Part shown: piece after piece, positions 9,533-12,460 of the stretch
Layout: each line of letters opens with the position of its first letter
How positions within the stretch are numbered: the stretch's first letter is position 1
NCBI RefSeq assembly: GCF_004153685.1
Contig: NZ_SDQD01000002.1
Location: 62,001-126,000, forward strand
DNA length: 64,000 bases
DNA from: Pollutimonas harenae
GTDB taxonomy: Bacteria > Pseudomonadota > Gammaproteobacteria > Burkholderiales > Burkholderiaceae_B
Reading direction: 5' to 3'
Notes under the pieces: generated by a model
Seen by the model: only the letters and a program-made list of their open reading frames with translations
Told to the model about the DNA's origin: nothing
Databases searched by the model: none
Translations under genes and position numbers: made by a program

Positions 9533-9601
9533 AAATAACTCTTGCCAGGATGTGGGTTTTTTTCATATTATGGGATTGTTGCGTTGCGTCAAAATAAGAC
9601 T

Positions 9602-10414
9602 ATGCCACGATCTTCCTTACTAACCTCGTCATTGAGTGGTTCTTCGTCCATTCATGGCTCTTCCATTACCATACAGGTGCTCGAGCGCGCGATGCGTTTG
9701 CTCGATGTACTCGCTCAGCAATCCGATCCCGTCGCACTGAAAGACCTGGCTGCTGCCACTGGCTTGCATACCTCGACGACACATCGAATACTGAATGACC
9801 TGGTTGTAGGCCGGTACGTGGAGCGGGTCGATAGCGGCCAGTATCAGTTGGGTATGCGTTTGCTTGAGCTGGGTTCGTTGGTAAAAGGCCGGCTCAATGT
9901 GCGTGAGGTAGCGCTGGAGCCTATGCGTGAGTTGCATAAGCTCACAGGCCAGACGATCAACCTGTCATTGCAGCAGGGTGATGAAATCGTCTACATCGAG
10001 CGAGCCTGGAGCGAGCGCTCGGGCATGCAGGTTGTGCGGGCGATCGGAGGGCGGGCGCCTCTGCATCTGACTTCCACTGGCAAGCTATTCCTGTCGGTCA
10101 GCGACCCCCGGCAAGTCAGAGCGTATGTCATGCGCACCGGCCTGGCAGGCACAACACGCAACAGCATTACAGAAGCCGAGCAACTTGATCGCGATTTGGC
10201 ATTGGTGCGGCGTCACGGCTATTCGCGCGATAACGAAGAACTGGAGTTGGGCGTGCGCTGTATTGCCGCGGGTGTCTATGACGATACAGGCAAGATGCAG
10301 GCAGGTTTATCAATATCTGCTCCCGCCGAACGCATGCGGGACGAATGGATACCCGTACTGCTGCGCACTGCAGCACAGATATCCGAAGCACTGGGCTACG
10401 AGGCTGCCCAATAA
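9602..10414 (+). CDS. IclR-family transcriptional regulator
   Basis: A 270-residue regulator with an N-terminal winged helix (ITIQVLERAMRLLDVLAQQ ... LKDLAAATGLHTSTTHRILNDL) and a C-terminal IclR effector-binding domain (from about residue 100; RAIGGRAPLHLTSTGKLFL, GYSRDNEELELGVRCIAAGVYD). IclR proteins sense small organic acids. The ATG at 9602 is preferred to an in-frame ATG at 9542, whose extra residues are not conserved in character. It faces a convergent Bug-type solute receptor, a frequent pairing for organic-acid uptake, but a regulatory link between the two is only inferred. Confidence 0.88.
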   Translation: MPRSSLLTSSLSGSSSIHGSSITIQVLERAMRLLDVLAQQSDPVALKDLAAATGLHTSTTHRILNDLVVGRYVERVDSGQYQLGMRLLELGSLVKGRLNVREVALEPMRELHKLTGQTINLSLQQGDEIVYIERAWSERSGMQVVRAIGGRAPLHLTSTGKLFLSVSDPRQVRAYVMRTGLAGTTRNSITEAEQLDRDLALVRRHGYSRDNEELELGVRCIAAGVYDDTGKMQAGLSISAPAERMRDEWIPVLLRTAAQISEALGYEAAQ

Positions 10415-10467: not shown

Positions 10468-11448
10468 TTATTGGGCTTCTATGCCCGCTTTCTTGAACAG
10501 TTCGGCCCACTGAGGAACTTGCTGCTCTACCTTTTTGGTCAGGGCTGCTGAGTTGGCTTGGTCGGTCAGAACGGTAGCGCCCAGGCCAGCCATGCGCTTC
10601 TGGAAGTCTTCAGAGGCCAGGCCGGCTTGCAGTGCTGCAGTCAGCTTGTCTGTAACGGGCTTGGGTGTGCCCTTGGGCGCCCACATGCCGTGCCAGATAC
10701 CCACTTCAAAGCCATCGTAGCCAGATTCCTGCATGGTGGGCAGGTCGGGCAGTGTAGGAACACGCTGCTTGCTGGTGACCGCATAAGCTTTGACCGTGCC
10801 AGCCTTGATGTGCTGGGTGGTGTTGGTGGTTTGATCGCACAACACGTCAACTTGCTTGCCCAGCAAGTCATTCATGGCTGGGCCGGTGCCCTTATAGGGA
10901 ATGGTCAGGAGATCGACACCAATGGCGTTGGTGAACATGGTGCCACAAAGGTGGCTGGCGGCGCCAATGCCAGCGTTGGCCAGCGATACCTTGTCTTTAT
11001 TGGCTTTCAGGTATTCGACCAGTTCCTGGATGTTGTTGGGTGGAAAGTCGGCACGTGCAATGATGGTCATGGGCACGTCAACTACCAGTCCGATGGGCTC
11101 GAAGCTGGTTTTAGGATCGTAGCCAGGGTTTTTATACAGGGATGGTGCGGTTGAGAAGCCAATATGCATCAGCAGGGCACTATAGCCGTCTGGTTTTGCG
11201 CGGGCGACCTGACTGGTGCCGATGGTACCGCCAGCACCCGCCTTGTTTTCGACAACGATAGTTTGGCCCAACGCAGGCCGCATGGCTTCTGCCAGGGAGC
11301 GTGCAACGTTGTCGGTGGGGCCGCCTGCAGAAAATGGCACGATCATGTTGACGGCATGATCGGGGTAATCGGCTGCCTGGGCTGCGCCTGCGCTAAGCAA
11401 TGTGCTTGCGAACAGGACGGCACCAAGTTTCGGTGTATGGGACTTCAT
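10468..11448 (-). CDS. Bug-type periplasmic solute-binding protein (tripartite tricarboxylate transporter family)
   Basis: A 326-residue exported receptor. It has a signal peptide (residues 1-25, AGAAQAA-DYPDHAV), then the Bug hallmarks VNMIVPFSAGGPTDNVARSLA, VVENKAGAGGTIGTSQVARAKPDGY and PYKGTGPAMNDLLG. These receptors bind organic acids or amides for TctAB-type symporters, but no membrane subunits are nearby, so it is an orphan as is usual in Alcaligenaceae. The SD GGAG sits just before the start. The convergent neighbour is an IclR regulator. Confidence 0.93.
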   Translation of the reverse strand: MKSHTPKLGAVLFASTLLSAGAAQAADYPDHAVNMIVPFSAGGPTDNVARSLAEAMRPALGQTIVVENKAGAGGTIGTSQVARAKPDGYSALLMHIGFSTAPSLYKNPGYDPKTSFEPIGLVVDVPMTIIARADFPPNNIQELVEYLKANKDKVSLANAGIGAASHLCGTMFTNAIGVDLLTIPYKGTGPAMNDLLGKQVDVLCDQTTNTTQHIKAGTVKAYAVTSKQRVPTLPDLPTMQESGYDGFEVGIWHGMWAPKGTPKPVTDKLTAALQAGLASEDFQKRMAGLGATVLTDQANSAALTKKVEQQVPQWAELFKKAGIEAQ

Positions 11449-11622
11449 CTAGACTCCAAGTGTTTTTGTAACAAAACAGAAAACTATTCGTGCAATGATG
11501 TAAGCATCAAGACGAGGGGCATGAATACTGGGGGAAAAAGTATTTTTTGTCGCCTAGGTTAATCCCTATTTTTTAAGCAAGTAGCAGGCATGGGCATTAG
11601 CAACAGCCACTATTATTGTTGT

Positions 11623-11635
11623 TGCAATGCAGCAA
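11623..11635 (+). promoter_or_regulatory. Upstream copy of a 13-bp repeat flanking the phasin promoter
   Basis: TGCAATGCAGCAA ends 7 bp before the -35 box of the phasin promoter. It is repeated with one mismatch at 11679-11691. In PHA-producing bacteria the repressor PhaR binds TGC-rich sites around phaP promoters, so this is a candidate PhaR operator; the assignment is inference. Confidence 0.55.
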
Positions 11636-11642
11636 AATATGC

Positions 11643-11670
11643 TTGACATGCTTGTTTGTTAAGGTAGAAT
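11643..11670 (+). promoter_or_regulatory. Sigma-70 promoter of the phasin gene
   Basis: A consensus -35 TTGACA (11643-11648) and a -10 TAGAAT (11665-11670) are separated by 16 bp. The predicted transcript would have a leader of roughly 125 bases. This is one of the best-matched housekeeping promoters in the window, which suits an abundant granule protein. Confidence 0.75.
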
Positions 11671-11678
11671 AGATTTTG

Positions 11679-11691
11679 TGCGATGCAGCAA
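11679..11691 (+). promoter_or_regulatory. Downstream copy of the 13-bp repeat at the phasin promoter
   Basis: TGCGATGCAGCAA begins 8 bp after the -10 box, so it lies at or just beyond the expected transcription start. The copies start 56 bp apart. Placement either side of the core promoter is what a repressor operator pair would look like. Confidence 0.55.
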
Positions 11692-11765
11692 GGAAGGTTT
11701 TCACACAAGTTAGGTGATTTGCTTAGCCTTCTTTATTTTATGTTTGAACCCCGTTCAATTAGCTG

Positions 11766-11782
11766 GAATCGCGTAGCGATTC
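11766..11782 (+). promoter_or_regulatory. Hairpin in the phasin mRNA leader
   Basis: A perfect 7-bp stem (GAATCGC / GCGATTC) with a 3-base loop ends 7 bases before the SD AAAGGA of the phasin gene. It may stabilise the mRNA or affect ribosome access. The rest of the 353-bp gap 11449-11801 holds no open frame that I can support. Confidence 0.4.
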
Positions 11783-11801
11783 TATTTATAAAGGAAATAC
11801 C

Positions 11802-12389: not shown

Positions 12390-12430
12390 AACCGTGCTGC
12401 TCTGTTAACGGAGCAGTCTTGCGGTAACAG

Positions 12431-12460
12431 AAAAGCCCAGGGCCAGGCCCTGGGCTTTTT
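12431..12460. terminator. Bidirectional terminator between phaP and pyrD
   Basis: A long GC stem (AAAAGCCCAGGG / CCCTGGGCTTTT) with A-runs on one side and T-runs on the other, placed between two convergent genes, so it can serve both strands. Confidence 0.9.

Follow-up and report, generated by a model that had tools for sequence, protein, structure and literature searches.

In Ralstonia eutropha (Cupriavidus necator) the promoter of the phasin gene phaP1 carries two sites for PhaR, the protein by which granules of the bioplastic PHB are sensed, BS1 directly upstream of the -35 element and BS2 around the transcription start, and the motif that has been deduced from the published sites is YTKNTGCRNYGCANMAR (PMC12849132). 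The corresponding protein of Herbaspirillum seropedicae, PhbF, represses phaP1 and recognizes TG[N]TGC[N]3GCAA, and both PhbF and the PhaR protein of P. denitrificans are tetramers (PMC3206438). For the PhaR of Sinorhizobium meliloti a core YGCRNYGCR has been described, and either of two sites flanking the -35 suffices for binding (PMC12542648).

The DNA that we study is a stretch of 64,000 nucleotides from Pollutimonas harenae (contig NZ_SDQD01000002.1), referred to in what follows as the window. A sequence-only reading of it had noticed two 13-bp direct repeats on either side of a phasin promoter and had proposed a PhaR-type pair of sites, possibly defining a variant operator. Here we compare this locus with the systems above, follow the sites through related genomes and consider where else in the genome PhaR might act.

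Architecture of the phaP promoter

Exact copies of TGC(A/G)ATGCAGCAA are found at 11623-11635 and 11679-11691, with a start-to-start distance of 56 bp, so that both the places and the distance given by the sequence-only reading are correct. Each 13-mer makes up most of a 17-bp palindrome (Table 1), a property that is absent from that reading. The promoter between the repeats, TTGACA-16-TAGAAT, agrees with the sigma-70 consensus at 11 of 12 positions and its -35 hexamer is separated from the first 13-mer by a gap of 7 bp, bearing out the description of a near-consensus promoter at this distance from copy 1. A transcript that begins 7-8 nt past the -10 would have its first nucleotide within the second 17-mer, and the placement of copy 2 at the transcription start holds for this predicted start. 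The downstream gene scores 77.3 bits against the phasin model TIGR01841, as compared with a curated cut-off of 30.2.

Table 1. Positions of features at the phaP locus, in window coordinates, and of the related site before kup
Feature	Position	Strand	Remarks
IclR-family regulator gene	9602..10414	+	PF01614, PF09339
Promoter-like TTGCCA-18-TATTAT of IclR-family gene	9542..9571	+	read from sequence; block conserved in relatives
Near-palindromic block TTTCATATTATGGGA	9561-9575		overlaps -10 of IclR-family gene; conserved in relatives
PhaR-type site TTGTTGCGTTGCGTCAA in IclR-family gene promoter	9576..9592	+	directly after -10-like TATTAT, over predicted start
TctC-type receptor gene	10468-11448	-	divergent from phasin gene
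PhaR operator 1 (predicted)	11619..11635	+	TTGTTGCAATGCAGCAA, near-perfect palindrome, upstream of -35; 17/17 to YTKNTGCRNYGCANMAR
-35 hexamer TTGACA	11643..11648	+	
-10 hexamer TAGAAT	11665..11670	+	spacer 16
PhaR operator 2 (predicted)	11675..11691	+	TTTGTGCGATGCAGCAA, at predicted transcription start; 17/17 to YTKNTGCRNYGCANMAR
Phasin mRNA leader, about 110 nt	11693..11801	+	three predicted hairpins: 11693-11731, 11744-11758, 11766-11782
Ribosome-binding site of phasin gene	11790-11797	+	3' of third hairpin
Phasin gene, 195 aa	11802..12389	+	TIGR01841, E 9.5e-22
PhaR-type site before kup, outside window	L038:1501-1517 = G000:C2:545381-545397		perfect 17-mer

Identity of the motif

The agreement of both 17-mers with the R. 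eutropha motif extends to the TGC/GCA core. The PhbF motif of Herbaspirillum can in addition be read on the minus strand of copy 1 (PMC3206438), and copy 2 departs from TGCGCCGCAACAA, a phaP1 site of R. eutropha that has been tested by QCM (PMC3570403), at degenerate positions only. The placement, with one site beside the -35 and the other at the predicted start, is that of a Burkholderiales-type PhaR operator. Since motif and layout both equal the published R. eutropha ones, the repeats are, on sequence grounds, a standard two-site PhaR operator that is known in kind. The proposal of a PhaR-type pair around phaP therefore stands, by motif and layout and equally by the presence of phaR in the genome and the conservation described below, while the idea of a variant operator is not borne out, both sites agreeing with the published motif at all 17 positions.

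It is useful to ask how often such sites occur by chance. With up to two mismatches allowed the 13-mer is found 9 times in the window as against 7.9 times expected, which is the chance level, and perfect matches are therefore what counts. Exact 13-mers number 3 among the 76 genome matches listed, two of them being the copies at the phaP promoter. Perfect 17-mers occur 9 times in the 3.37 Mb genome, twice at the phaP promoter and, for the rest, six times inside mechanical ORFs and at a sole intergenic position that precedes kup; there are in addition at least 64 sites with one mismatch (73 sites less the 9 perfect ones). When the 352-bp intergenic region was subjected to 20,000 dinucleotide shuffles a perfect 17-mer arose in 12 of them and two within 75 bp in none, and in three congeners 22 perfect 17-mer sites, those at phaP, iclR and kup among them, compare with 1 for the reversed pattern. 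That the repeats might be a functionless chance duplication or an effect of TGC-rich composition, a reading to which the chance-level count of the two-mismatch 13-mer lends itself, is scarcely credible in the face of these shuffles and of the retention of a site in 81/81 family promoters despite a diverging spacer and leader.

Conservation at phasin promoters

In order to follow the sites among relatives we have assembled a family set made up of the window's locus and the best 80 of 105 relatives, all 80 of which were used (n = 81). Under a strict rule that allows at most 2 mismatches with the core intact, and that counts as a pair two sites 45-75 bp apart, at least one site is present in 81/81 promoters and a pair in 73/81, leaving 8 without a pair; these 80 relatives are akin to each other, many of them Achromobacter and Bordetella, and hence are not independent cases. 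The reversed motif is found in 0/81, and 1620 dinucleotide-shuffled regions gave 28 with one site and 1 with a pair. Absence of the repeats from orthologous phasin genes, which the sequence-only reading had named as the outcome that would speak against it, is thus not what is seen. Spacer and leader diverge among the 81 promoters while the sites stay.

A looser rule, with up to 3 mismatches of which one may fall in the core, makes it possible to describe the geometry in full. Site 2 is then present in every promoter (81/81) and lies 32 nt past the start of the -35 in 78 and 33 nt past it in 3, with a promoter spacer of 16 nt that fits 80/81. Site 1 is present in 76/81, the exceptions being L103, L122, L124, L125 and L126, and the spacings between the two sites in these 76 pairs are 54 (2), 55 (32), 56 (36), 57 (4) and 67 bp (2). 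The two 67-bp spacings (L052 and L123) are about one helical turn longer than 56 bp, but there are only these two cases and site 1 of L123 is weak. A family-wide layout is thereby given, with the spacer and the position of site 2 as above and with sites 54-57 bp apart in 74/76.

In the wider order a phasin match was obtained in 62/100 genomes, and the best 30 of these 62 were scanned at one locus each, the 30 including 3 loci of the window's family, among them that of the window itself. Among these 30 loci, each the one best phasin of its genome, 15 have a pair, 11 have one or more sites that do not form a pair and 4 have none at up to 2 mismatches. Three of the pairs call for some care, as the one in L221 is situated far upstream and must be doubted, and those in L197 and L201 have no recognized promoter in between; L208 and L209, two of the four loci without a site, have one at 3 mismatches with the core intact. 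All 27 non-family genomes among the 30 carry PhaR, so that there are genomes which encode PhaR and yet have no clear site at their best-scoring phasin.

PhaR and its own operon

The sequence-only reading had recommended a search for phaR, and the gene is indeed present in the same genome, outside the window and behind phaC and phaB (TIGR01848, E 1e-45; PF07879 and PF05233). Across 151 family genomes PhaR and a phasin are both present in 136 and both missing from 11, with PhaR alone in 1 and a phasin alone in 3 (G057, G051 and G150). A 2.0-Mb family genome (G014; L166, G014:C1:402000-408000) contains a diverged PhaR (110.6 bits) and no TIGR01841 phasin. The phasin-only genome G057 is 100% complete and has neither a PhaR match nor any site with at most 2 mismatches and the core intact, retaining at its phasin one degenerate remnant with 2 mismatches and a broken core; its five congeners, all with PhaR, keep two sites each. 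G057 is also without the IclR gene and, because phaR and the IclR gene are both lost, this control is confounded and cannot alone separate PhaR from IclR. G051 (66% complete) and G150 (95% complete, in 340 contigs) have no PhaR match and keep two sites, and here PhaR may merely be absent from the assemblies.

Upstream of phaC and of phaR in the genome's own phaC-phaB-phaR operon (L165, G000:C3:88000-98000) no site was found when up to 3 mismatches were allowed, of which one could fall in the core. Among 22 loci compared in windows at phaC or phaR, G034 alone has a site with at most 2 mismatches and the core intact, and several have weaker candidates, such as one with 3 mismatches and an intact core at -94 of phaC in G015. 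Autoregulation of phaR, as reported for Ralstonia and Herbaspirillum, would then have no visible site in this operon, although a weak one might escape such a scan, since in R. eutropha the oligonucleotide taken from phaR showed no stronger binding than control DNA (PMC3570403).

The IclR-family gene as alternative regulator and as candidate target

An IclR-family gene lies 1.4 kb before the phaP start, and it is conceivable that its product, and not PhaR, binds the palindromes at phaP. The two genes do travel together: 28 of the best 30 family IclR loci are within 5 kb of a phasin match, with G061 at 7.3 kb and G038 on another contig, and they are also near each other in some other families (for example G212, G180 and G224). 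Moreover, a similar palindrome stands in the promoter of the IclR gene itself at 30/30 of these loci, and in G057 phaR, iclR and the intact sites are missing all together. Four genomes of the order (G202, G231, G225 and G181) nevertheless have both the phaP pair and PhaR while lacking an IclR match with an E-value of 1e-40 or below, which favors PhaR as the binder, and the motif is that of PhaR sites that have been footprinted or mutated in other genera (PMC12849132, PMC3206438, PMC12542648). The iclR promoter, furthermore, has another conserved block, TTTCATAWTATGG, of which the window has no copy close to phaP when up to 2 mismatches are allowed; on visual inspection several distant iclR promoters that have no PhaR-type site show looser forms of it, although the fixed pattern is found in only 1/20. 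IclR as the binding factor at phaP is thus disfavored, and we consider it very improbable.

The palindrome in the IclR gene's promoter is a candidate PhaR target. This site, TTGTTGCGTTGCGTCAA, departs from the R. eutropha motif at a single core position, number 13 (GCG for GCA), and fits the S. meliloti core (PMC12542648). The best 30 family orthologues, out of 93/101 genomes with any match, were scanned with a rule of at most 2 mismatches, one core mismatch being allowed, and the 30 sites comprise 5 that are perfect, 13 with one mismatch and 12 with two, the TGC and GC columns being invariant in 30/30. By comparison, mean column identity over the 40 nt upstream of the site, which include the promoter and so some columns near 1, is 0.70, and over the 20 nt downstream it is 0.52. 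Further afield the site becomes rare, with 3 occurrences at up to 2 mismatches in 20 further IclR loci (G001, perfect, and G240 and G197) and with 1/6 among those 6 of the 20 that belong to the family. The near-palindromic block that overlaps the -10 (Table 1) might be the operator of the IclR protein itself, but because of this overlap such an assignment is only a guess.

A PhaR-type site before kup

The intergenic 17-mer before kup lies at -70, that is 70 nt before the gene, in 4/4 members of the genus, perfect in 3 and with one mismatch in 1. The identity of kup derives from NCBIfam Kup models, which match below cut-off on a partial stretch. The site would cover a -35-like TTGCTG with GATAAT 17 nt further on, as read from the sequence, and in an ungapped comparison of the four genomes 23/31 columns are invariant over the site and its -10, as compared with 1/98 upstream and 10/41 downstream. 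One intergenic perfect site per genome does not on its own exceed chance, and it is this conservation that supports the case for kup. At 26 other kup loci (from the best 30 of 77 genomes with a match) no core-intact site was found at up to 2 mismatches, G027 having a weak candidate whose core is broken.

Both the iclR and the kup site are PhaR targets by prediction, from comparison of genomes. It is possible, if in our judgment slightly short of probable, that in this branch of the Alcaligenaceae PhaR, instead of controlling the PHB enzymes, heads a small cascade in which phaP, the phaP-linked IclR-family gene and, in the genus, kup are its direct targets, with its own operon lacking a strong site. 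Granule formation would in that event switch a second transcription factor as well as potassium uptake, and the range of what PHB granules control in these bacteria would be widened. In a limited literature search we found no printed account of IclR or kup as PhaR targets, although one may be published: PMC10888616, as searched, has a single mention of IclR, among the regulator families that are affected, and IclR is absent from the text of PMC11332829 as searched; a search for Kup in PMC10888616 and PMC12542648 found no mention, though trkH is present in an S. meliloti protein table.

The phasin mRNA leader

The leader is predicted to form three hairpins (Table 1), the first of which has a sequence that is near-invariant in the Pusillimonas/Pollutimonas/Candidimonas group. 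The last hairpin holds its place before the ribosome-binding site as its sequence changes, and Achromobacter has a different conserved leader that likewise ends in a hairpin. RNAalifold, applied to the leader alignment, recovered the first hairpin only, with no compensatory pair, so that the evidence for the third hairpin comes from folding each sequence separately. Folding of the window's leader is not unusual (z -1.44), and in 32 of 56 leaders of at least 85 nt the best hairpin, which is sometimes not the last one, beats mononucleotide shuffles (p<0.05). With E values of up to 1 allowed, Rfam matched nothing in the leader, the sole hit (E 0.99) lying past the gene at 12423-12456, and no printed account of such a phasin leader was found, as judged by titles.

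Regulation of phaP and comparison with known systems

The sites, the promoter, the phaR gene and their conservation are found here; binding, repression and release by PHB would follow by analogy with the work on R. eutropha, Herbaspirillum and Sinorhizobium. On this basis we are confident in the reading that two PhaR operators bracket the sigma-70 promoter of phaP, through which PhaR would repress the gene until PHB forms. As long as there is no PHB, free PhaR would occupy both 17-bp palindromes, beside the -35 and over the start, and keep RNA polymerase out; as PHB forms PhaR would be drawn to the granule and phaP derepressed. Repression most likely works by exclusion, the mode that has been reported for R. 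eutropha phaP1, because PhaR on site 2 would cover the predicted start and on site 1 would adjoin the -35. One PhaR tetramer may even bridge both sites, a speculation that the tetrameric state of the PhaR orthologues makes possible.

PhaR could in principle bind here and activate phaP, as it does phaP3 in R. eutropha reporter assays (PMC12849132). However, phaP3 has a sigma-N-like promoter, and its two sites precede the transcription start by about 70 and 200 bp (PMC12849132). At phaP of the window the sites stand on either side of a sigma-70 promoter close to consensus, which is the arrangement of the repressed phaP1, and activation is most improbable.

The locus can be set beside its described counterparts. 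As at phaP1 and phaP2 of S. meliloti, where PhaR is also termed AniA, two palindromes with the core YGCRNYGCR flank the -35; the S. meliloti protein is, however, an alphaproteobacterial PhaR, and the phaP1 sites listed for it are 18 bp apart, as against 56 here (PMC12542648). With H. seropedicae the locus shares the PhbF motif and the genome shares the gene order, phbC-phbB-phbF corresponding to phaC-phaB-phaR, although PhbF binds eleven promoters of PHB genes, its own included (PMC3206438), and the phaC-phaB-phaR operon here is without a core-intact site. From R. eutropha the genome differs in having no site that we could find at phaR, and, unlike phaP1 with its predicted BS3 inside the gene (PMC12849132), the window's phasin gene contains no third site under the looser rule of up to 3 mismatches, of which one may be in the core. 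In all other respects compared, namely a 17-bp palindromic motif, one site by the -35, one at the start and a sigma-70 promoter, the phaP promoter of the window is like that of R. eutropha phaP1 (PMC12849132).
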